Source of the DNA: Shinella sp. PSBB067
GTDB lineage: Bacteria > Pseudomonadota > Alphaproteobacteria > Rhizobiales > Rhizobiaceae
Length of the DNA: 64,000 bases
Reading direction: 5' to 3'
Assembly (NCBI RefSeq): GCF_016839145.1
Contig: NZ_CP069304.1
Span: 372,001 to 436,000, forward strand
Each line of letters begins with the position of its first letter. The stretch's first letter is position 1. Positions 48,424 through 60,496 of the stretch are shown in pieces. The notes beneath the pieces were generated by a model, which saw only the letters and a program-made list of their open reading frames with translations, had not been told where the DNA came from and ran no database searches. A program made the translations under genes and the position numbers.

Positions 48424-49323
48424 TCAGGCGCCTTCGCGCTTCGTCCGCTCGGCGCTGGCCTTCGCCCTTTCGAGATGGCTTTTCATCAGATCGGCCGCGC
48501 GCGCACGGTCGCCCTCCTGGAGCGCGGTGATGATGCGCAGGTGCTCCTGGCACCATTCGCGCACGCGCCGCCCGTTGGTGTAGCTGGCGAATTCCAGCAG
48601 GCGGCGCAGGCGGTTCTGGTGCTGGATGGACTGGAGCAGGAAGGTGTTGCCGGAGCATTCCGCGATGGTCTCGTGGAAGCTGGCGTCGAGCTCGAAGAGC
48701 TGGCGCGCCGGCAGGCTGTTGAAATCCGGCCGGGCAAGGAGGTTCAAATGCTCCAGGCGGATATGTTCGAGCGCGGCAGGATGGGCCCGGAAACTCTCCA
48801 TCAGGATGCCCGACGGCTCGATGACGCAGCGGAATTCATAGCTGGCGTCCAGCGCGAACTTGTTGTCGAGGGTCGGCTGGAAGGTCCAGTTGCGCCCCGG
48901 GCCGCGCGTGATCAGCCCGTCGGCCATCAGGGCCGAGAGCGTCTTCTGCAGGACGTTGCGCTCGACCCCGTAGCGGCGGGAGATTTCCGCCTGCCCCACC
49001 GTCTCCCCGAGCTGGTGCGTCAGCCTGTCCTCGACGATGCGGGCATAGAGATCCTGCTGCGGCGAACTGGGGACCTCCACTTCCGTCCGGCCGAGCGCCT
49101 CGGCGCCGATCTTCATGAAGAAGCCCTTGTTCTTGCGGGCCTCCACCACGCCTCTTTCCGCCAGTAGCATCAATGCCGCGCGGATCGGCGTGCGGGAGAC
49201 CTGCAGCACGTCGGCAAGCTGCTGCTCGCGCAGGTGATAATCCACCTGGAAACGCGAGGCGCGCGCCAATTCGACGATGCGATTTGCGAGCAGGTAGCGG
49301 TTTTGACGGGGATTTTTGTCCAT
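48424..49323 (-). CDS. GntR-family regulator with two winged-helix domains and FCD-like effector domain
   Basis: A 299-residue regulator. The first GntR-type winged helix is at about 28-75 (YHLREQQLADVLQVSRTPIR, LMLLAERGVVEARKNKGFFM). A second winged-helix-like stretch is at about 105-140 (ETVGQAEISRRYGVERNVLQ, ALMADGLITRGPGRNWTF). The rest (about 150-299) is an FCD-type all-helical ligand domain with FELDASFHETIAECSGN. It faces the polar-amino-acid operon and probably represses it. The candidate operator overlapping that operon's promoter and a partial copy before its own gene suggest autoregulation. Confidence 0.9.
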   Translation of the reverse strand: MDKNPRQNRYLLANRIVELARASRFQVDYHLREQQLADVLQVSRTPIRAALMLLAERGVVEARKNKGFFMKIGAEALGRTEVEVPSSPQQDLYARIVEDRLTHQLGETVGQAEISRRYGVERNVLQKTLSALMADGLITRGPGRNWTFQPTLDNKFALDASYEFRCVIEPSGILMESFRAHPAALEHIRLEHLNLLARPDFNSLPARQLFELDASFHETIAECSGNTFLLQSIQHQNRLRRLLEFASYTNGRRVREWCQEHLRIITALQEGDRARAADLMKSHLERAKASAERTKREGA

Positions 49324-49626: not shown

Positions 49627-50442
49627 ATGAACCGTCTTCTTCACATTCTTCTTCTCGCAACCGCGCCGCTCGCCGTTTCCGGCGCGGCTGCCGCCCAGTC
49701 CCTCGACGGCGTCAAGCTCGTCGAGGCGGGCAAGCTGACCTATGGCGTGGCGGCCAGCTTCGCGCCATTCGAATATGTCAACGAGGGTAAGCTCACCGGC
49801 TTCGACATCGATTTCATCCAGGCGCTCGCCGAAAAGCTCAAGGTCGAGCCGGCGGCGATGAACATGGAGTTCAAGGGCCTCATCCCGGCCCTCCAGGGCG
49901 GGCGCATCGATATCATCAACTCCGCCATGTACATCAATCCGACCCGCGCTGAGCAGGTCGATTTCGTGCCCTATCTCGAGATCGGCAACAACGTCATGGT
50001 CCAGACCGGCAATCCCAAGGGGATCACCGGCCGTGACGACACGATCTGCGGCAAGACCGTCGCCGTGACGCTCGGCGGCATTTCGGAAAGCCAGGCGCGT
50101 GCCGACAACGAGCGCTGCAAGGCCAAGGGCCTCGGCGAGGTGAAGGTGCTGACGCTGCCCACCGCGCAGGACAGCGCGCTTTCCCTGAGCCAGGGCCGGG
50201 CCGACGCCAACTACGAAAGCACGCCGGGCGCGGTGATGGCGCTGGAGAAGATGCCGGGCGTCTTCGAGATCGCCGGCGAGCCCTTCGAGATGGATACCCA
50301 GATCGGCATCGCGACGCCGAAGGGCGCGACCGAGCTGCAGGCCGCGCTTGCGGCGGCCATCAAGGCCATGGCCGAAGACGGCTCCTACGACAAGCTGATC
50401 GCCAAGTGGAAGCTGCCGCCGTCGGTTTCGCTGTTCGACTGA
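49627..50442 (+). CDS. Polar amino-acid ABC transporter substrate-binding protein (family 3)
   Basis: A 271-residue periplasmic binding protein. The signal peptide is MNRLLHILLLATAPLAVSGA followed by AAA. The SBP_bac_3 pattern is clear: LTYGVAASFAPFEYVNEGKL, TGFDIDFIQALAEKL, GLIPALQGGRIDIINSAMYI and a closing SYDKLIAKWKLP. A Cys pair (TICGKTVAV, NERCKAKG) probably forms a disulfide. First gene of the catabolic operon controlled by the divergent GntR protein; the ligand is likely the operon's amino-acid-like substrate. Confidence 0.93.
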   Translation: MNRLLHILLLATAPLAVSGAAAAQSLDGVKLVEAGKLTYGVAASFAPFEYVNEGKLTGFDIDFIQALAEKLKVEPAAMNMEFKGLIPALQGGRIDIINSAMYINPTRAEQVDFVPYLEIGNNVMVQTGNPKGITGRDDTICGKTVAVTLGGISESQARADNERCKAKGLGEVKVLTLPTAQDSALSLSQGRADANYESTPGAVMALEKMPGVFEIAGEPFEMDTQIGIATPKGATELQAALAAAIKAMAEDGSYDKLIAKWKLPPSVSLFD

Positions 50443-50538: not shown

Positions 50539-51255
50539 ATGTCACTTGATCTGGTCTTCCAGTATCTACTCTCGCCCACCTTCTTCCACGGTGCGGCCAT
50601 GACCCTGCTGATCACGGTCAGCTCTCTCGTCTTCGGCCTGCTGGCCGGCTTTGTGCTCGCGCTCGTCAATCAGGTGAAGTTCCTGCCTGTCCGGCTGATC
50701 GCGGTGTTCTATCTCTGGCTGTTCCGCGGCACGCCGGTCCTCTTCCAGATCATCTTCATCTACAATGTCCTGCCGACCTTCGGCATCCGCCTGACCGCTT
50801 TCGCGTCCGGTGTCATCGCGCTGTCGCTCAACGAAGGCGCCTACATGGCCGAGATCATCCGTTCGGGTCTTCAGGCGATCAAGAGCGGGCAGCGCACGGC
50901 AGGCATGGCGCTCGGCATGACCAGGCTGATGGTGATGCGCTATGTCGTCCTGCCCCAGGCCGCGCGCATCATGCTGCCGCCGATCGGCAACCAGACCATC
51001 GGCATGCTCAAGACATCGGCCCTCGTCTCGGTCATCGCCGTGGAGGAATTGCTGCTGGTGGCCAACCAGACCGCATCGGCGACCTTCCGCTACTTCGAGG
51101 CGCTGAGCGCGGCCGGCATCTACTATCTCGCGCTGACGACCATCTTCATGGCCGGCCAGTACTGGATGGAACGCTCGCTCGAACCCAAGCGCAGCCGCGC
51201 GCCGAAGCGCTCCGTCCTTTCCATCCTGCTGCAGCCCGCTGCCGAGAATAATTGA
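50539..51255 (+). CDS. Polar amino-acid ABC transporter permease (HisM/GlnP type)
   Basis: A 238-residue permease. The first helix region FFHGAAMTLLITVSSLVFGL LAGFVLALVN, FRGTPVLFQIIFIYNVLP, the EAA-like loop EIIRSGLQAIKSGQRTAGMA LGMT, and LPQAARIMLPPIGNQTIGML KTSALVSVI are standard. Only one permease is encoded, so the channel is probably a homodimer. The gap before it (96 bases) may hold an internal hairpin that lowers expression relative to the binding protein. Confidence 0.92.
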   Translation: MSLDLVFQYLLSPTFFHGAAMTLLITVSSLVFGLLAGFVLALVNQVKFLPVRLIAVFYLWLFRGTPVLFQIIFIYNVLPTFGIRLTAFASGVIALSLNEGAYMAEIIRSGLQAIKSGQRTAGMALGMTRLMVMRYVVLPQAARIMLPPIGNQTIGMLKTSALVSVIAVEELLLVANQTASATFRYFEALSAAGIYYLALTTIFMAGQYWMERSLEPKRSRAPKRSVLSILLQPAAENN

Positions 51256-51264
51256 GGCCATCCG

Positions 51265-52005
<741 letters not shown>

Positions 52006-52033
52006 ACTCCGTGCCTTTTCAGGGAAGTCCGAT

Positions 52034-53191
52034 ATGAACATCCGCCCCGATGCCGCTCGCATGAAGCGCGAGCTGGGTGAACTCGTCGCCATCAACTCCG
52101 AAAACCCGCCGGGCGGGGAGGGCGCGGTGGCGCAGTGGGCGCGCGAACGGCTCGCATCGCTCGGTTTCGAGGTGAAGCTGATCGAATATGCCCCCGCGCG
52201 CTTCAATGTCGAGGCGCGGCTGGTCAACGGGCCCGGCCCCGTCTTCGCGTTCAACACCCATATGGACACGGTGCCGGCCGGCGACGGCTGGACCTCCGGT
52301 GCCTTCACCCTCACCGAGCGCGACGGCCGGCTCTACGGCCGGGGAAGCTGCGATTGCAAGGGGCCGCTGGCCGCCATGATCGAGGCGGCGCGCATGCTGG
52401 TCGCCGAGCGGCAGGCATGGTCCGGCACGCTGATGGTGGTCTTCACCGGCGACGAGGAGGTGGCGAGCGCCGGTGCACGCCACTATGCGGCGTCGCGGCC
52501 GGAGATCGATGCCGTCGTGGTCGGGGAGCCGACGGGCAATGCGTGCTTTTCGGCGCACAAGGGGTCCTTCCGGCCCGTCGTGCGGATAACGGGCAAGGCG
52601 GCGCATTCCGGCAGCCCGCATCTCGGCGACAACGCTATCTTCCGCGCCGGCCAGCTCATGCCGCTGCTGGCCGCGTTCCATGACGAGGTCCTGGCGCAGC
52701 GCATCCATCCGCTCGTCGGCAATCCGAGCCTGACGGTGACGCGCATCAAGGGCGGGCATGCCGACAATGTCATCCCGGCCGAATGCGAGCTGCTGCTCGA
52801 CCGCCGCCTGATCCCCGGCGAGACGGATGCGAGCGCCGAGGCGGAAATCCGCGCGCTGCTGGCGGATGCGGAAAGGACGCATGGCATCCGTGCCGAGATC
52901 GTCGGCTATCACGCGACCACGGGCGGGGCGACCGATACGCCGGAAACCGCGCCCGTCGTGCAGGCCGCCGTCGCCGCCTGCCGGGCGGCGGGCGTTGCCG
53001 AAGCCGGCCCGTTCGGCTTCCAGGGGGCATGCGACCTCGTGCATTTCATCGAGGCGGGCGCCGAGGGCGTGGTGATCGGCGCCGGCGACATTCGCGTTGC
53101 CCATCGTCCCGATGAATTCGTGCCGGCGGATGAGTTCGTTATGAGCGCTGCGATCTATGCCGACATCGCGCGGCGCATCCTGGCGGCGTGA
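52034..53191 (+). CDS. M20-family metallopeptidase/deacylase (ArgE/DapE/CPG2-like)
   Basis: A 385-residue zinc amidohydrolase. The metal-binding motifs are FNTHMDTVPAGDGW (His and Asp), RGSCDCKGPLAAMIEA (bridging Asp), FTGDEEVASAG (catalytic Glu-Glu), DAVVVGEPTGN and a late His in ADIRVAHRPDEFVPADEF. Such enzymes remove N-acyl groups or hydrolyse dipeptides. In this operon it could release an acyl group or amino acid after the M24-like hydrolase opens the substrate. No signal peptide, so it acts in the cytoplasm. The start of the next gene overlaps its stop. Confidence 0.92.
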   Translation: MNIRPDAARMKRELGELVAINSENPPGGEGAVAQWARERLASLGFEVKLIEYAPARFNVEARLVNGPGPVFAFNTHMDTVPAGDGWTSGAFTLTERDGRLYGRGSCDCKGPLAAMIEAARMLVAERQAWSGTLMVVFTGDEEVASAGARHYAASRPEIDAVVVGEPTGNACFSAHKGSFRPVVRITGKAAHSGSPHLGDNAIFRAGQLMPLLAAFHDEVLAQRIHPLVGNPSLTVTRIKGGHADNVIPAECELLLDRRLIPGETDASAEAEIRALLADAERTHGIRAEIVGYHATTGGATDTPETAPVVQAAVAACRAAGVAEAGPFGFQGACDLVHFIEAGAEGVVIGAGDIRVAHRPDEFVPADEFVMSAAIYADIARRILAA

Positions 53192-54285
53192 CGATGCGGA
53201 TCCATCTCTACCGTTCGCTGCTGACCTATGCGGGCCTGACGGTGCACACCGCCAGTTCCGGACCTGTACCCGGTCTCGACACGCTTTACCTCGAACTCGA
53301 TGACGGGCGGCATCGCGGGGTCGGCGAGGTGCGCATCAACTGCACCTATCTGAATGGCTACGAGCCGGAGGATCTGCTGCGGCGCACCCGCGCGGCGATC
53401 GCCGGTTTCGATTGGCAGGCACCGCCGGATGCGGTTCGTGCCGCCGTCGCCGCAAGCCCGTTGCCGGCGCCGGTGCGCATGCTGTTCGACATCGCGCTCT
53501 GGGACCTCGATGCCCGGCGCGCCGGACTGCCGCTCGCGCATCTTCTGGCCGGCGAGGCACGGACGCTTTCGCATCCGACGAACCAGACGCTCTTTCTGTC
53601 GACCGACGAGGCGTTCGATCGACAGGTGGCGCTTTACCTCTCGCGCGGTTTTCGCGACCTGAAGCTGCGGGTCGGCCAGGATATCGAGGCCGATTGCGCC
53701 CGCCATGCGCGCATCCGCGCCGCCCATGGCGAAACGGTCAAGCTTGCCGCCGATGCGAATGGCGCCTGGACGGCGGCGGATGCGCCGGAGCGGCTTGCGG
53801 CGCTTTCGCGCTTCGGGCTCGCCTATGTCGAGCAGCCGATCGCGGCCGGCGACTGGGATGCGATGACGCGGCTTGCCGCCGGTGCGCCGATGCCGGTGAT
53901 GCTGGACGAGAGCCTTGCCTCCGGCGCCGATGTCGAGACGCTGGTGGCGCGCGCGCCGTCGGCGGCCGGCCGGCTTCAGGGGCACCTCAAGCTGATCAAG
54001 CTCGGCGGGCTGACGCCCGCGCTTGCGGCCGCGCGGTCTCTGGCCGCGGCGGGCATTCCCTTCATGATCGGCCAGATGAACGAGGGCGGGGTCGCGACGG
54101 CGGCGGCGCTTCACCTCGCCGTGGCGACAAGGCCCCTCCATGCCGAGCTCTACGGCGCGGACGGGCTGGTCAACGATCCGGCCGAGGGCCTGACCTATGC
54201 GGACGGCAAGGTTGCTGTCCGCCATGAGCCCGGCCTCGGGCTGAATTTCCGGGCGCCTTCCGCGCCCCTATCCCTGGGAGAATGA
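53188..54285 (+). CDS. Enolase-superfamily enzyme (muconate-lactonizing-enzyme/epimerase-like)
   Basis: A 365-residue enolase-superfamily protein. The KxR motif DLKLRVGQD supplies the first base. Metal ligands come in order: Asp in LAADANGAW, Glu in YVEQPI and Asp in MLDESLAS. The opposite-face Lys is in GHLKLIKLGG. This lysine-pair arrangement defines the MLE subgroup, which includes dipeptide epimerases, N-acylamino-acid racemases, proline-betaine epimerase and cis-3-hydroxyproline dehydratase. With an amino-acid importer and peptidases, an epimerase or dehydratase of an amino-acid derivative is most likely. Start GTG 53188 overlaps the previous stop; ATG 53194 is the alternative. Confidence 0.88.
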   Translation: MTMRIHLYRSLLTYAGLTVHTASSGPVPGLDTLYLELDDGRHRGVGEVRINCTYLNGYEPEDLLRRTRAAIAGFDWQAPPDAVRAAVAASPLPAPVRMLFDIALWDLDARRAGLPLAHLLAGEARTLSHPTNQTLFLSTDEAFDRQVALYLSRGFRDLKLRVGQDIEADCARHARIRAAHGETVKLAADANGAWTAADAPERLAALSRFGLAYVEQPIAAGDWDAMTRLAAGAPMPVMLDESLASGADVETLVARAPSAAGRLQGHLKLIKLGGLTPALAAARSLAAAGIPFMIGQMNEGGVATAAALHLAVATRPLHAELYGADGLVNDPAEGLTYADGKVAVRHEPGLGLNFRAPSAPLSLGE

Positions 54286-54286
54286 G

Positions 54287-55459
54287 ATGGATAGCGCAGG
54301 TGTCGTGCTGGGCCAGGAGTCGGCCTTTCCAAGAGACGAATACGAGAAGAGGCAGGCGCGTGCGCAGGCCGGCCTTGCCAGGGCCGGGCTCGATGCCCTG
54401 GTCATCACGGGACCGGAGAACATCTTCTATCTGACGGGGCAGCAGACGCCGGGCTATTATACCTTCCAGGCGCTGGTGCTGCCGGCCGAGGGCGATCCTG
54501 TCTTCGTCATCCGCCAGCTCGAATATTTCAACTTCATCGCCAACACGTTCATCTCCGACGCCGAGGTCTACCAGGACAGCGAGGATCCGATCGGCTTCCT
54601 GATGAAGGTGATCACGCGCAAGGGCCTTTCCGGCAAGCGCGTCGCCATCGACAAGCGCGGCTGGTTCCTGCCGATCGCCGTCTACGAGACCCTCCAGTCG
54701 GCCCTCGGCACGGTTCACGACGGCGCCGGCATCGTCGAGGCGCTGCGCGCCGTCAAGTCGCCGCTCGAAGTGGAGAAGCTGGAAACGGCGGCGTCCTATG
54801 TGGATGCCGGCATGCGGGCCGGCCTTGCCGCCGTCCGGGCGGGCGCCTCCGACAACGACCTGGTCGCGGCCATGATGGAGGCCGCCATCCGGGCGGGCTC
54901 GGAATATATGGGCATGGAACCGCTCGTCTCGACCGGCCGGCGCACGGGCGTGCCGCACGGGACATGGCGGCGCACGGCCCTTTCGGCGAACGATCCCGCC
55001 TTCCTCGAAATGGCCGCGGTGCATGACCGCTACCACGCAGCGCTGATGCGCTCGGCCTGGGTCGGCCCGGTGCCGCAGGAGGCCGAGGACATGATGAAGG
55101 TCTGCCAGGACGCGCTCGCCGCCGCGCTGGACGAGATCAGGCCCGGCGTTGCCTGCGAGGTGCCGCACATCGCCTGCCAGAAGGTCATCGATGCCGCCGG
55201 CTACACGGACAATTTCCGCAAGCGCCTCGGCTATTCGGTCGGCATCTCGTTCGCGCCGGACTGGGGCGAGGGGGCGATCCTCTCGCTGAATGCCGGCGTC
55301 AAGATCGCGCTCCAGCCGGGCATGACATTCCATCTGCCGCCCGCCCTCCGCATCTACGGACGTTTCACCGTGGGGGTCTCGGAAACCATCGTCGTCACGG
55401 AAACGGGCTGGCGCCAGCTCGGCACCGTGCCGCGCGCTCTCACCCGCATCGACGCGTAA
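54287..55459 (+). CDS. M24-family hydrolase of the creatinase/ectoine-hydrolase type
   Basis: A 390-residue pita-bread-fold protein. The N-terminal creatinase domain has GLDALVITGPENIFYLTGQQ. In the C-terminal domain the metal ligands of true Xaa-Pro aminopeptidases are mostly gone: LEMAAVHDRYHAALMRS replaces the D..D pattern, and GYSVGISFAPDWGEGAILSL replaces the GHGIG..HE motif. GYS-x-G with PDWGE, followed by MTFHLPPALRI and VGVSETIVVTETG, is the pattern of creatinase and ectoine hydrolase (DoeA/EutD), which are metal-free C-N hydrolases. A cyclic amidine, ureido or similar substrate is therefore likely. It is not an ordinary ectoine operon, because the DoeB/EutBC partners are absent. Confidence 0.85.
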   Translation: MDSAGVVLGQESAFPRDEYEKRQARAQAGLARAGLDALVITGPENIFYLTGQQTPGYYTFQALVLPAEGDPVFVIRQLEYFNFIANTFISDAEVYQDSEDPIGFLMKVITRKGLSGKRVAIDKRGWFLPIAVYETLQSALGTVHDGAGIVEALRAVKSPLEVEKLETAASYVDAGMRAGLAAVRAGASDNDLVAAMMEAAIRAGSEYMGMEPLVSTGRRTGVPHGTWRRTALSANDPAFLEMAAVHDRYHAALMRSAWVGPVPQEAEDMMKVCQDALAAALDEIRPGVACEVPHIACQKVIDAAGYTDNFRKRLGYSVGISFAPDWGEGAILSLNAGVKIALQPGMTFHLPPALRIYGRFTVGVSETIVVTETGWRQLGTVPRALTRIDA

Positions 55460-55480: not shown

Positions 55481-56404
55481 ATGAAGGACCGTCAGGAGGC
55501 GCAGGCGCGCCTGAAAGGCATCTTCAACATCACCATGACGCCCTTCACCAGGGAGGGTGCGCTCGACAAGGAGGGGCTCGCCCGCAACGTCGAGCGCGTC
55601 ATCGCCCTCGGCTATGACGGCGTGCTCATCGGCGGCACCTATGGCGAGTTTCCCACCATGACCGTGGCGGAGCGCGCCGACGTCTTCACGCATGTCATGG
55701 ACGTGATCGGCGATCGCATTCCGGCAATGCTCTGCTCGGCCGGTTCCGACCCGCGCGACGTCTACGAGCTGACGAAGCTTGCCGGCGATCTCGGCGGCGT
55801 GCCGATGGTGACGGCTCCCTACGTCTCGGAGATCACCGACGACCAGATCGTCGACTTCTTCCGCGACGTGGCGCCGCTCTCCAAGACGGGGATCATCATC
55901 TACAACGCGCCGGGCATCGGCATCACGCTTTCGCCGGCCCTGATCGGCCGCCTGGCCGATATCGACGGCATGGTCGGCCTGAAGCAGGGCGACCTCAACC
56001 CGACGGCGATCGACCGCATCGCGAACGACCTGCGTGGTCGCGTGCGCACCTTCTGCGCCTCGGACCTCGCCTTCCTCGGCCCCGTCATGGCCGGTTTCGA
56101 TGGCTTTTCGACGACGAATAGCGGCGCGCTGCCGGAACTGATCCTCGCGACCTACCGCGCGCTGGAAGCCGGCGATGCATCGACCGCCCGCGACCTGCAC
56201 GCGCTCTGGTACGACTATCGTGCGCTCGCCCGCGCGCATGGCCAGCCGCAGCTTGTGAAGGCGGCGATGAACCTGCGCGGCTTCGACGGCGGGTCCGTCC
56301 GCCTGCCGCTGCGCGATATCCCGGCCGCCGTGCAGCCGAAGCTGCGCGCCGTCATGGAAAGGCTCGCCGCGGATTCGCGCACGGGCCTCAAGCTCGCCGC
56401 CTGA
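55481..56404 (+). CDS. Dihydrodipicolinate synthase/N-acetylneuraminate lyase-family enzyme
   Basis: A 307-residue class I aldolase-fold enzyme. It has FNITMTPFTREGALDKEGLA, GGTYGEFPTMTVAERADVF, the Tyr in GIIIYNAPGIGITLSP, and the Schiff-base Lys in DGMVGLKQGDLN. Members add or release pyruvate or 2-oxo acids, or deaminate cyclic imino acids. The usual GTTGE of true DapA is replaced by GGTYGE, so lysine biosynthesis is unlikely and a catabolic lyase fits the operon. A strong terminator follows its stop. Confidence 0.9.
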   Translation: MKDRQEAQARLKGIFNITMTPFTREGALDKEGLARNVERVIALGYDGVLIGGTYGEFPTMTVAERADVFTHVMDVIGDRIPAMLCSAGSDPRDVYELTKLAGDLGGVPMVTAPYVSEITDDQIVDFFRDVAPLSKTGIIIYNAPGIGITLSPALIGRLADIDGMVGLKQGDLNPTAIDRIANDLRGRVRTFCASDLAFLGPVMAGFDGFSTTNSGALPELILATYRALEAGDASTARDLHALWYDYRALARAHGQPQLVKAAMNLRGFDGGSVRLPLRDIPAAVQPKLRAVMERLAADSRTGLKLAA

Positions 56405-56465: not shown

Positions 56466-57665
56466 TCAGGCAAGCCTGCCGAGGGCTGCGGCCACGCGCG
56501 ACAGCGCTTCGGCGAGCCTGTCGTCGTCGATGGCATAGGCGATGCGCAGGTGCCCGGGCATGCCGAATGCCGAGCCGTGCACCATGCCGACATGGGCCTC
56601 CTCCAGAAGATAGCCGGCGACATCGAGGTCGGAGGCCAGGACGGTGCCTGCCGGTGTCCGCCTGCCGAAGAGGCCGGTGCAGTCGGCGAAGACGTAGAAG
56701 GCGCCCGGCGTGGGCAGTGCGGAGAGGCCTGATATCGACGCGATGGCGGAGAGCACCTGTTCACGGCGCGCCAGCAGCGTCCGTTTCCAGCCGTCCAGGA
56801 AGGAGAGGTCGCCGTCGAGCGCGGCGATGGTCGCGGCCTGAGAGATGGTCGAGGGGTTCGATGTGCTCTGCGACTGAAGGACGTCCATGGCGCGGATCAG
56901 CCATTCCGGCCCGCCGGCATAGCCGAGCCGCCATCCCGTCATCGAATAGCCCTTCGAGACGCCGTTGATCGTCAGCACGCGACCGGCCAGCCGCGGCATC
57001 GCGGCCGCAGGCGCCACGAAGCTGCCGTCGTGGACGATATGCTCGTAGATGTCGTCCGCCATGACGAGGGCATCATGTCCTGCCAGCACCTCTTCCAGCG
57101 CCGAGAGTTCGGAGCGGCCATAGACCGCGCCCGTCGGATTGTTCGGCGAGTTCAGGATGACCCAGCGGGTGCGCGGGGTCAGCGCGGCCGCCAGCGCCTC
57201 GGGCGTCAGCTTCCAGCCGTCCCGCGCGTGGCACGGCACGATGACGGGCTTTGCGCCTGCCAGCCGGATCATGTCCGGATAGCTCACCCAATAGGGCGCG
57301 GGCACGATCACCTCTTCGCCTTCGCCGAGGGTCGCCAGGAAGGCGTTGAAGATCAGTTGCTTGGCGCCCGTCCCGGCAATGATCTCGGAGGGGGCGTAGC
57401 GAAGGCCGTTTTCCCGTTCGAACTTGCGCGCGATGGCCGCCTTGAGCGCGGCGGTGCCGGAGACGGCCGTGTATTTGGTGTCCCCGTCGCGAATGGCCTG
57501 GATGCCGGCCTCGCAGACATGGGCAGGGGTCGCGAAGTCCAGTTCTCCTTCGCCCAGGTTGATGACGTCGGCGCCACGGGCGGCCAGCGCCCGCAGCTTG
57601 TTCGATATTTCCGCGGTCGGCGACGCGCCGACGACGGCCATGCGGGGCGAGAGTCTGGAATTCAT
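56466..57665 (-). CDS. Class I/II PLP-dependent aminotransferase
   Basis: A 399-residue aspartate-aminotransferase-fold enzyme. Landmarks are INLGEGELDFATPAHVCEAG, the NPTG motif in LNSPNNPTGAVYGRSELSAL, ALVMADDIYEH with the Asp-Tyr pair, the PLP lysine in INGVSKGYSMTGWRLGYAGG, and the C-terminal Arg in GHLRIAYAID. It resembles AspC/AroAT Ib enzymes. It is convergent with the importer/hydrolase operon and divergent from the amidotransferase-SDR-FAH genes, so it belongs to the same neighbourhood and probably the same pathway. Start ATG at 57665 follows a GGAGGTAG ribosome-binding site. Confidence 0.93.
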   Translation of the reverse strand: MNSRLSPRMAVVGASPTAEISNKLRALAARGADVINLGEGELDFATPAHVCEAGIQAIRDGDTKYTAVSGTAALKAAIARKFERENGLRYAPSEIIAGTGAKQLIFNAFLATLGEGEEVIVPAPYWVSYPDMIRLAGAKPVIVPCHARDGWKLTPEALAAALTPRTRWVILNSPNNPTGAVYGRSELSALEEVLAGHDALVMADDIYEHIVHDGSFVAPAAAMPRLAGRVLTINGVSKGYSMTGWRLGYAGGPEWLIRAMDVLQSQSTSNPSTISQAATIAALDGDLSFLDGWKRTLLARREQVLSAIASISGLSALPTPGAFYVFADCTGLFGRRTPAGTVLASDLDVAGYLLEEAHVGMVHGSAFGMPGHLRIAYAIDDDRLAEALSRVAAALGRLA

Positions 57666-57757
57666 GGATGCTACCTCCGTTACGATCCCTGCATTGTCTA
57701 TAATGATAAAAAAAATACAATATTGGGATTGAAACTTTTCCGATAAGGAGGATAAGT

Positions 57758-57778
57758 ATGGGAAAAATAGCGCAGTAA
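57758..57778 (+). CDS. Possible 6-residue leader peptide (MGKIAQ)
   Basis: AAGGAGG, a near-perfect ribosome-binding site, stands at the right distance before ATG GGA AAA ATA GCG CAG TAA, 52 bases ahead of the amidotransferase gene. The signal is stronger than that of many real genes here. It may be a regulatory upstream frame, or the remnant start of a lost gene. No run of one amino acid points to classical attenuation. Confidence 0.35.
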   Translation: MGKIAQ

Positions 57779-57779
57779 G

Positions 57780-57786
57780 ATTGTAC
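57780..57786. promoter_or_regulatory. ATTGTAC word before the amidotransferase operon, candidate GntR site
   Basis: ATTGTAC, the core of the candidate GntR operator at 49531-49546, recurs here, and its variant ATACAAT (ATTGTAT on the other strand) occurs at 57715-57721. Both lie in the divergent region between the aminotransferase and the amidotransferase genes. If real, they tie both transcripts to the GntR regulator 8.5 kb away. Confidence 0.35.
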
Positions 57787-57830
57787 GTTTCCATTCAACA
57801 AGTGCATGTGATGGATTCTCGGGAGGGGTC

Positions 57831-58985
57831 ATGGGGCGCATCATCCTCGTTCGGCACGAAACGGATCATCCCGCGCTCTACGGTGCGGCGGCGGCGCTCG
57901 TCGCGGCTGCCGAAGGCGGGCGGCTGTTCTGGCCGGCGGCACGATTCGACTTTGATCGCCATCCCGATGCCGAACAGCATGTCGCCGATGAAGGCGCGCT
58001 TATCCCCAGCGGCCTGATCTGGGCGGACCGCCTCACCAGGCGAAGCGCCCGCCCTCTCGCCGAGCTTTCGGACGAGGCGGTGGCCGTCGTGCCCGTGCAT
58101 GCGGCTTTTCTTGCCGACGGCGATGCCGTGTCGCGGTTTGCCGCAGCGGGCGCGGAAGACAGGACCGTCCGTCTGGAGGAGAACCGCTTCATCGACGCCG
58201 ACGGCCGCGTGATCGGCTGGCGGGACCGGTTCGGCCGGGTGCTTCGCGTGGAGCCGGCCGCCGTCGCGCCGTCCGGCCCCGTCCTCGCCCTTGCGGGGCC
58301 GGTGGAACAGTTTCTTGAAACCTGCCCGGCGCCGCTTGCTGCGCTGGCGGATGCCATTGATGCCGAGGCGCCGGGCGCCACGCTGCGTTTCCTCGATCCG
58401 CGCGACCTGCCGGCCGATTCGCTTGCCGGTGTCGACGGTGTGTTGCTGCCCGGCGGATCGCAGATGTCGGCGGTGGCGGGGCAGATCGCGCTTGCCCGCG
58501 CCGCGCGGGCAGGCGCAACCCCGATCGCGGGCCTCTGCCTCGGCATGCAGAGCATGGCGACTGCGGCCGCCCGCGAGCTTTCCGGCTGGGAGGATACGGA
58601 CATGGCGGAGGCGGCTCCCGCCGCCGCCCGTCACAGTTTCATCCGCATCGAGACAGGCGAATACAGGCTTGGCCGGCGCATCACCCGGTCCGTGCCGGGC
58701 AGCCGTCTCCGGCAGCTTCTCGGGGCCGAGAGCGAAATCGCCTGCAATCACCGCTACAGGCTGGCCCCCGCCCTGCATGAGGGGCTGGCAAGCCGCGGCG
58801 TGCTGGTAAGCGCGCTCGGGGGCGAGCCGGGCCAGGATATCGCCGACGCGATAGAGGCGACGGACGGCTTCTACATGGGCATGCAGGGGCATCCCGAGCT
58901 TTCGTCCCGCCCGGGACATCCGCACCCGCTTCTTCGCGCCTTCGTGGCCGAAGCCGCAAGAACCGCCCGCGCCCGTCGGGCCTGA
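57831..58985 (+). CDS. Stand-alone CTP-synthase-type glutamine amidotransferase domain protein
   Basis: A 384-residue protein. Residues from about 200 match the class I glutaminase domain of CTP synthase: GVDGVLLPGGSQMSAVAGQI, the nucleophile Cys236 in IAGLCLGMQSMATAAAREL, NHRYRLAP, and the His354/Glu356 pair in MGMQGHPELSSRPGHPHPLL. The CTP-synthase ATP/UTP-binding synthetase domain is absent. The first ~165 residues (GRIILVRHETDHPALYGAAA, VEENRFIDADGR-like stretch) form a domain I do not recognise. It could hydrolyse glutamine or a gamma-glutamyl compound or feed ammonia to another enzyme. GGGAGGGG precedes the start; SDR and FAH genes follow closely. Confidence 0.85.
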   Translation: MGRIILVRHETDHPALYGAAAALVAAAEGGRLFWPAARFDFDRHPDAEQHVADEGALIPSGLIWADRLTRRSARPLAELSDEAVAVVPVHAAFLADGDAVSRFAAAGAEDRTVRLEENRFIDADGRVIGWRDRFGRVLRVEPAAVAPSGPVLALAGPVEQFLETCPAPLAALADAIDAEAPGATLRFLDPRDLPADSLAGVDGVLLPGGSQMSAVAGQIALARAARAGATPIAGLCLGMQSMATAAARELSGWEDTDMAEAAPAAARHSFIRIETGEYRLGRRITRSVPGSRLRQLLGAESEIACNHRYRLAPALHEGLASRGVLVSALGGEPGQDIADAIEATDGFYMGMQGHPELSSRPGHPHPLLRAFVAEAARTARARRA

Positions 58986-58997
58986 CAGGAGAGAACC

Positions 58998-59783
58998 ATG
59001 GATCTTGAACTCAGCCGCCGCACCGCCCTCGTGCTCGGCGCTTCAGGCGGCCTTGGCCGGGCCATCGCGGAAAGCCTCGCCGCCGAAGGCGCCAATGTCA
59101 TTCTCGGCGGCCGTTCCGCCGAACGGCTGGAGCCGGTGCGCTCGGCCATTGCGGCGTCCGCATCGGGCCGCATCTCCACGCTCGTTACGGACCTTGCCGA
59201 TCCGGCGGCCGTGGAGCAGGCGATTGCCGAACTGCAGGCCGGCGACAAGCCCGACATCGTCGTGCTCAACGGTGGCGGCCCCGCGCCGGGCGCGATGGCC
59301 GCGCTGGATGCAGACAGCCTCGTCCCGCAGTTCCGCGCCATGGTCGAGGCGCCGATCCGCATCGCCACGGCCCTTCTGCCGCATATGCGCGGGCAGCGCT
59401 TCGGCCGCATTCTCGTGCTGCTGTCTTCCGGTGTCGTGCAGCCGATCCCCAATCTCGGCCTGTCCAACACGCTGCGCCTTTCCCTCGTCGGCTGGGCGAA
59501 GACGCTCGCCGCCGAAGTGGCGGCCGACGGCGTGACGGTCAACGGCCTTATCCCCGGCCGTATCCACACCGACCGCGTCGACCAGCTGGATGCCGCCGCC
59601 GCCAAGCGGACCGGCAAGACGGCGGACGAGGTCGCCGCGGCTTCCCGCGCGACGATCCCGATGGGACGCTACGGCGCACCGCGCGAGTTCGCCGATGCGG
59701 CGTGCTTCCTCTGCTCGGGGCGTGCGGGCTACATCACCGGCACGAGCCTGCGCGTCGACGGCGGCATGCTGCGCAACATCTGA
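58998..59783 (+). CDS. SDR-family oxidoreductase lacking the usual YxxxK catalytic pair
   Basis: A 261-residue Rossmann protein. The dinucleotide motif LVLGASGGLGRAIAESLAAE, the NxG-like VVLNGGGPAPG, the active-site Ser in ILVLLSSGVVQPI, and the C-terminal YITGTSLRVDGGM are all SDR. Where YxxxK should be, the sequence reads NLGLSNTLRLSLVGWAKTLA with no Tyr and no Lys at the right spacing. This is characteristic of a divergent SDR subgroup, so ordinary alcohol dehydrogenation may not be its job. It follows the amidotransferase by 12 bases and precedes the FAH-family gene by 11. Confidence 0.88.
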   Translation: MDLELSRRTALVLGASGGLGRAIAESLAAEGANVILGGRSAERLEPVRSAIAASASGRISTLVTDLADPAAVEQAIAELQAGDKPDIVVLNGGGPAPGAMAALDADSLVPQFRAMVEAPIRIATALLPHMRGQRFGRILVLLSSGVVQPIPNLGLSNTLRLSLVGWAKTLAAEVAADGVTVNGLIPGRIHTDRVDQLDAAAAKRTGKTADEVAAASRATIPMGRYGAPREFADAACFLCSGRAGYITGTSLRVDGGMLRNI

Positions 59784-59794
59784 GGCAGAAAACC

Positions 59795-60496
59795 ATGAGC
59801 GACTATGTCATCGACCCGCCCCCGGTGGCGAGCCTGCCCGTTGCCGGCTCCACGGCACGCTTTCCCGTGCGGCGCATCTTCTGCGTCGGGCGCAACTATG
59901 CCGACCATGCGCGCGAAATGGGTCACGACCCGGACCGCGAGCCGCCCTTCTTCTTCGACAAGCCGGCGGACGCCCTGGTCGTGGGGGACGAGGATGTTCC
60001 CTATCCGAGCGCGACGGATCAACTCGAACACGAGGCGGAACTCGTGGCGGCCCTCGGCAGCGGCGGCTGCAATATCGATGCGGCCGGGGCACTGGACTGC
60101 GTATGGGGTTACGCTGTCGGCAACGACCTCACCCGGCGCGACATTCAGGCGGAAGCCAAGAAGCTCGGCCGCCCGTGGACGATGGCCAAGGGGTTCGACG
60201 GTTCTGCCGTTTGCGGGCCCGTCTATCCTGCCGCGCGCATCGGCCATCCGGTGAGCGGACACATCCGTCTGCTCGTCAACGGAACGCTGCGCCAGTCCGG
60301 CGATATCGCACAGATGATATGGACGCTTCCGGAGATCATTGCGGCGCTCTCACGCCTGGTCGAACTGAAGGCTGGCGACCTCATCTACACAGGAACGCCG
60401 TCTGGCGTGGGAAGCCTTGTGCCGGGGGATGTCGTGGAAATTGCGATCGCGGGGCTCGGTGAGGTTCGTAGCAGGATTACATCGCGATCCTGTTGA
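59795..60496 (+). CDS. Fumarylacetoacetate-hydrolase-family protein (fumarylpyruvate hydrolase-like)
   Basis: A 233-residue FAH-fold hydrolase or decarboxylase. It has the fumarylpyruvate-hydrolase start FPVRRIFCVGRNYADHAREM, PPFFFDKPADALV, the metal-binding Glu pair in LEHEAELVAALG, Asp in VGNDLTRRDIQAEAK, and the C-terminal DLIYTGTPSGVGSLVPGDVV. Such enzymes cleave or decarboxylate 2,4-dioxo acids using Mg2+. Its last residues (EVRSRITSRSC) look atypical, and the stop lies within a 20-base overlap with a minus-strand frame, so the 3' end may have been altered. Probably a late step of the same catabolic route. Confidence 0.9.
   Translation: MSDYVIDPPPVASLPVAGSTARFPVRRIFCVGRNYADHAREMGHDPDREPPFFFDKPADALVVGDEDVPYPSATDQLEHEAELVAALGSGGCNIDAAGALDCVWGYAVGNDLTRRDIQAEAKKLGRPWTMAKGFDGSAVCGPVYPAARIGHPVSGHIRLLVNGTLRQSGDIAQMIWTLPEIIAALSRLVELKAGDLIYTGTPSGVGSLVPGDVVEIAIAGLGEVRSRITSRSC

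Follow-up and report, generated by a model that had tools for sequence, protein, structure and literature searches.

A CTP synthase-like protein with an apparently reduced N-terminal domain in a conserved catabolic gene cluster of Shinella sp. PSBB067

What could a glutaminase of the CTP synthase type be doing in a catabolic operon, in a bacterium that has an ordinary pyrG elsewhere in its genome? The question is raised by an open reading frame (ORF) of Shinella sp. PSBB067 lying in a stretch of 64,000 nucleotides (contig NZ_CP069304.1, positions 372,001 to 436,000), hereafter the window, in whose coordinates all features are given. The initial annotation had recognized in it a CTP synthase-type glutaminase with an intact Cys236-His354-Glu356 triad, encoded in a catabolic operon, and profiles, residue conservation and gene neighbourhood agree with this. 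The best explanation we can offer is that the protein is a CTP synthase paralogue turned into an uncoupled amidase that serves a catabolic cluster; the structural and evolutionary part of this explanation is very probably correct, and for the explanation as a whole we see the chances as even. The ORF and its two domains are as follows.

57831..58985, forward strand: focal ORF encoding a CTP-synthase-derived, glutaminase-type protein of 384 residues (ORF, profile and homologue searches)
57831..58265, forward strand: residues 1-145, small domain resembling the amidoligase and lacking a P-loop (predicted structure and motif count)
58266..58982, forward strand: residues 146-384, class I glutamine amidotransferase (GATase) domain of CTP synthase type (hhalign to the PyrG GATase, Prob 100)

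Residues 198-372 are matched by Pfam GATase (PF00117) and, with a lower score that still exceeds the gathering score (29.9 against 20.5 bits), by Peptidase_C26 (PF07722), and in a sequence comparison with solved chains CTP synthases come out best (1vco_A, E 6.7e-21, residues 183-375). In a tree of 46 GATase domains the family (34 rows, 91/89) stands apart from PyrG (11 rows, 100/98); the relative branching is unsure because the branch of the PuuD outgroup is very long and was flagged by the program. The gamma-glutamyl-gamma-aminobutyrate hydrolases PuuD and SpuA (Peptidase_C26; 6vtv, 7d4r), which act in amine breakdown, share the class I GATase fold, and a PuuD-like hydrolase could be imagined here too, stripping a gamma-glutamyl group that a ligase similar to glutamine synthetase, with its gene at another place, had added before. 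We consider this improbable: the sequence is much nearer to CTP synthase than to PuuD, and no ligase gene was found among the ten cluster proteins scanned, the rest of the genome lying outside that search. PuuD and SpuA also have no N-terminal domain and require a PuuA-type ligase (in E. coli puuA adjoins puuD).

Does the glutaminase domain keep what it needs for catalysis? Related loci were collected from GTDB genomes (the best 80 of 188), and 77 loci were used for counts, near-duplicates included (L001, which is the window itself, and L006 and L007). Residue conservation was counted over 78 sequences, namely the window and the 77 loci, and in part over a larger set of 301.

58536..58538, forward strand: Cys236, nucleophile (E. 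coli PyrG C379), Cys in 70/78 and Ser in 8/78
58548..58550, forward strand: Gln240 (E. coli PyrG Q383), 78/78
58608..58610, forward strand: Glu260 (E. coli PyrG E403), 77/78
58752..58754, forward strand: Arg308 (E. coli PyrG R470), 78/78
58890..58898, forward strand: His354 and Glu356 (E. coli PyrG H515 and E517), 76/78 and 78/78

The triad is unbroken in 290/301 sequences of the larger set. The equivalents of PyrG E403 and R470, which we take to be glutamine-binding residues, are nearly invariant, and those of G351 and G352 are conserved in 78/78 and 77/78. A second group of positions differs from PyrG: that of F353, in L11, holds Ala, Ser or Cys in 78/78, R429 has no equivalent in any of the 78, the position of R468 is Asn in 77/78, and that of R356, likewise in L11, is mostly replaced, its five commonest residues (Ala, Lys, Ser, Gly, Cys) accounting for 58/78, with Arg in at least 10/301. 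The PyrG motif GG(TS)(ML)RLG is represented mainly by its Arg (R440, 77/78) and its last Gly (G442, 76/78). In passages of PMC9138612, F353, R356, R429 and R468, or the region around them, are tied to GTP activation of PyrG. As far as the sequences tell, then, the triad and the glutamine-binding residues have been preserved in this domain and most of the GTP-control residues are gone.

The N-terminal domain is less straightforward. It had initially been described as unfamiliar, and the synthetase as missing; this stands in so far as no sequence profile matches the domain, but the predicted structure aligns with the synthetase domain of CTP synthase, and an N-terminus unrelated to the synthetase is not supported. 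Predicted by itself, the domain has a predicted local distance difference test score (pLDDT) of 91.8; the first nine rows of its structural matches are all CTP synthases, at near-full coverage, and in the predicted structure both domains superpose on CTP synthase over 371 residues in one piece, in identical order. Domain order, predicted overall fold and a GATase with triad and glutamine-binding residues are shared with E. coli PyrG (1s1m, 8fve). Unlike PyrG, the protein has 384 and not 545 residues, its amidoligase-like domain about 145, and the P-loop, whose lysine serves ATP binding, is absent: a GK[STG] motif within the first 45 residues occurs in 0/78 members and in 1/301 of the larger set, against 54/54 PyrG sequences.

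A number of searches gave no support to a common origin of this domain and the synthetase domain. Foldseek with the N-domain alone gave no match at E <= 0.001; none of 54 N-domains matched PF06418 at a limit of E 10, although the filters drop most weak matches; and a Pfam scan of the same 54 yielded ten weak single-member matches, none informative. Profile-profile alignment by hhalign against the synthetase domain gave Prob 0.38% (24 PyrG and 78 family sequences) and 0.30% (54 and 301; 0.69% for the first 75 residues), while an unrelated profile, of SDR (short-chain dehydrogenase/reductase) proteins (cluster 18), scored 12.2% and 5.1%, and a forced global run returned nothing. Since these values are no better than those of some unrelated profiles, homology is without support from the sequence alone. 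Of the profile results, one agrees with the structural match, namely where the best local alignment falls: residues 17-78 lie on 18-89 of E. coli PyrG, over 62 collinear columns that pair QH with QH, with a non-significant E-value. Could the N-domain then be some other small alpha/beta (P-loop-like) domain that has been joined to a GATase of CTP synthase type and is similar to an amidoligase by fold only? This is decidedly improbable in view of the nine CTP synthase rows, the single superposition of both domains and the collinearity of that local alignment, and we infer that the N-domain descends from the synthetase domain.

The paired QH belongs to one of the most conserved stretches of the N-domain, DAxQHV, whose H50 is found in 67/78 sequences.

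57966..57983, forward strand: DAEQHV, residues 46-51, QH aligned with E. coli PyrG Q56-H57 (local hhalign, non-significant E-value)

Passages of PMC9138612 propose Pro54, His57 and Val60 as gate residues of the PyrG ammonia tunnel, and a passage of PMC8325340 doubts that His57 closes it. Homologue searches at E <= 0.001 returned 178, 177 and 285 proteins (each with about 8000 candidates scored and 120 listed), and among the matches listed nearly all homologues have 364-438 residues, two of the first search being shorter (264 and 275). The conserved segment aligned with the gate, the two-part length of nearly all these listed relatives and the almost complete set of glutamine-binding residues could fit an ammonia-supplying glutaminase comparable to HisH or TrpG, which would cut plain glutamine and, without ATP, channel the ammonia along the gate segment towards an acceptor bound either by the remnant domain or by a partner enzyme. 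We regard it as unlikely: amination would be of little obvious use in a breakdown operon, conservation of the proposed gate is limited to the counterpart of His57 (in a non-significant alignment), and no partner with an ammonia-dependent reaction was identified.

Is the protein a second CTP synthase? Relatives are so named in public records, for instance ATU_RS26150 on plasmid At of Agrobacterium fabrum C58 (L111:13995-15218). The curated PyrG models nevertheless score far below their cut-offs on the focal protein (NF003792, 94.0 against 308; TIGR00337, 83.9 against 462.75 bits), the P-loop motif is missing from all 78 members, and the Shinella genome carries one ordinary pyrG, on another contig, which was the only match in a whole-genome scan with PF06418. 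A true second CTP synthase is therefore rejected as hardly credible, and the label on ATU_RS26150 is a probable annotation error. The protein is not classed as a CTP synthase because defining features that were tested for were not found in it, and it would appear to act as an amidotransferase-derived hydrolase. PRK06186, 'CTP synthase C-terminal region-related (seleno)protein', likewise has a GATase of CTP synthase type that is not part of a complete CTP synthase, but its model (NF004836) spans 228 positions, leaving no room for the N-terminal domain, and scores 58.5 bits here, under its cut-off of 260. A selenoprotein review contains the phrase 'CTP synthase C-terminal region'. Judged by titles and the first lines of abstracts, none of the papers listed in searches of the open-access literature appears to deal with this gene or its cluster.

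The neighbourhood in the window, another difference from pyrG, is the following.

48424..49323, reverse strand: GntR/FCD family regulator of the cluster (conserved neighbour)
49627..50442, forward strand: family 3 amino-acid solute-binding protein (profile match)
50539..51255, forward strand: amino-acid ABC (ATP-binding cassette) permease (profile match)
51265..52005, forward strand: amino-acid ABC ATPase, best model GlnQ, under its cut-off
51956..53191, forward strand: M20 (ArgE/DapE-like) amidohydrolase (conserved neighbour; start possibly ATG 52034)
53188..54285, forward strand: MLE-type enzyme of the enolase superfamily (conserved neighbour)
54287..55459, forward strand: M24 enzyme of creatinase/prolidase type, with ectoine hydrolase DoeA as its best solved relative (conserved neighbour)
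55481..56404, forward strand: DHDPS-superfamily aldolase/lyase
56466..57794, reverse strand: aspartate-type aminotransferase (PRK06107-like, below cut-off; start possibly near 57665)
58998..59783, forward strand: SDR oxidoreductase, lineage-specific member
59702..60496, forward strand: fumarylacetoacetate-hydrolase (FAH) family protein, lineage-specific (start possibly 59795)

The focal gene lies between the divergent aminotransferase and the SDR/FAH pair, downstream of the regulator, the importer and the M20, MLE, M24 and DHDPS genes. The importer resembles glutamine systems, and other amino-acid systems match too. The mechanical ORF starts seem too early at 51956-53191, 56466-57794 and 59702-60496.

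Which of these genes accompany the focal gene elsewhere? With a simple gene caller followed by clustering, the same gene set was found in alphaproteobacteria, Enterobacterales, Pseudomonas and Burkholderiales; since genes are at times overlooked by the caller, as in L004, tblastn was used to check presence again, and at least two of M20, MLE and M24 were detected in 60 of the 77 loci. These three enzymes are the conserved partners. The SDR and FAH genes, which had initially been proposed as such, proved lineage-specific, their clusters occurring in 13/86 and 7/86 of the gene sets called, some of which are short. On the pAt plasmid of A. fabrum C58 the relative is found with GntR, solute-binding protein, permease, ATPase, M20, MLE and M24 genes, a VOC protein, a GhrA-like reductase and a D-amino-acid transaminase. 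The focal gene is present in four of 199 genomes from the family to which the window belongs (presumably Rhizobiaceae; best 9-10 candidates scored per genome). The same four have M24 at 77% identity or more (five other genomes at 52-54%) and MLE at 57% or more (one other at 39%), and each of the four carries all three genes in a span of about 6 kb. As to the M24 subfamily at 52-54% (L119-L123), in two of the five neighbourhoods (L130, L131) neither the focal protein nor any of the other enzymes used as queries was matched.

Of the other 17 loci, three (L001, L083, L085) have about 1.5 kb of flank per side, L005 is a 5.9 kb contig in which M24 is present, L009 has 1.5 kb upstream, and L041, with 10 kb upstream and 2.9 kb downstream, has none of the three enzymes. 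The remaining eleven are copies from Caballeronia or 'Burkholderia turbans', likewise with none of the three; in five of them an aminotransferase was matched, at 55-80% identity. All 60 loci that contain the core enzymes have an intact triad. Among these 17 it is broken in ten, by replacement of Cys with Ser in eight and of His with Asn or Tyr in one each. All ten broken copies (L020, L021, L023, L025, L027, L029, L030, L031, L033, L053) belong to the Caballeronia and 'Burkholderia turbans' group and are still full length; M20, MLE and M24 are absent from their available flanks, which reach at least 9 kb on both sides in five (L020, L021, L027, L030, L053) and less on one or both sides in the others. 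The breaks probably represent at least three events, not ten.

The eleven copies of this group, one with an intact triad, have a median ratio of nonsynonymous to synonymous substitution rates (dN/dS) of 0.31 (55 pairs, median dS 0.10), compared with 0.22-0.45 in Burkholderiales copies with the cluster (10 pairs) and a median of 0.11 in Enterobacterales (9 pairs). With a value well below 1, the solitary copies are not plainly dead. They may act without catalysis, as a non-catalytic glutamine sensor or regulatory pseudoenzyme would; for the family this reading is very unlikely, given the intact triad beside the core enzymes and in nearly all of the larger set. An intact triad wherever the core enzymes are present, with breaks only in some loci lacking them, suggests that it is the cluster's function for which the protein retains its catalytic Cys and His.

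The explanation we favour, a CTP synthase paralogue acting as an uncoupled amidase, can be put in steps. The amidoligase domain would have been reduced from about 265 to about 145 residues with loss of the ATP site, and the glutaminase domain would have kept its triad and glutamine-binding residues and dropped most of the residues linked to GTP control. With these changes no CTP synthesis is expected, and the protein would work as an uncoupled amidase. An imported amino-acid derivative might be converted to a glutamine-like intermediate, whose gamma-amide or gamma-glutamyl bond the focal protein would cleave; the M24, M20 and MLE enzymes would process the same compound, and the transaminase and DHDPS-type lyase would then finish the carbon skeleton. 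An amidase is consistent with the glutamine-like importer, with a glutamine pocket that is intact and with the disappearance of most residues related to GTP, and the role as amidase or gamma-glutamyl hydrolase suggested at the outset is plausible. The substrate class, a glutamine-like gamma-amide or gamma-glutamyl intermediate, is tentative, at somewhat less than even chances. A bolder version, which we regard as a long shot, is a new enzyme derived from a CTP synthase that abandoned ATP-driven CTP synthesis and retained the glutaminase and part of the ammonia tunnel; by way of the former gate it would supply ammonia to (or accept an amine for) an acceptor pocket newly formed in the shrunken domain, as a step in an undescribed cyclic-amidine or gamma-amide amino-acid pathway of soil and plant-associated bacteria.

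If the favoured explanation is true, an essential ligase has likely been converted in nature into a hydrolase that works by itself, and one could then address directly which parts of CTP synthase the glutaminase activity needs without ATP, UTP and GTP control. The cluster, apparently uncharacterised, extends over alpha-, beta- and gammaproteobacteria, and since some public records, that of A. fabrum C58 among them, give the gene as 'CTP synthase', metabolic models can be misled.

Among known pathways, ectoine degradation (DoeA/EutD with the Ehu ABC importer) has in common with the cluster studied here that a DoeA-related M24 enzyme and an ABC importer for polar amino acids share an operon; the cluster has M20, MLE and the CTP-synthase-derived protein in addition. 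The window's M24 enzyme does not reach the cut-offs of the DoeA models (282.4 against 575 and 197 against 613 bits), and its Rouxiella counterpart scores 299.1 and 228.4 bits on the same models. By analogy with DoeA one might speculate about a cyclic amidine upstream. Homoserine/canavanine breakdown, Amadori opines, N-acetylglutaminylglutamine amide, nicotianamine, 4-hydroxyglutamate derivatives and cyclised glutamine were considered as conceivable substrates, and none could be supported. In one Burkholderiales cluster a threo-3-hydroxyaspartate ammonia-lyase/EutB-like gene (L037:11183-12178, reverse strand) adjoins the focal gene; its gene cluster (number 43) recurs in L039, L044, L052 and L071, and it is a possible clue to the substrate. 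The focal gene of Shinella sp. UYSO24 (L043) shows a possible frame break, with a stop at residue 348 and odd residues at 306-309, which may reflect a sequencing error or decay.
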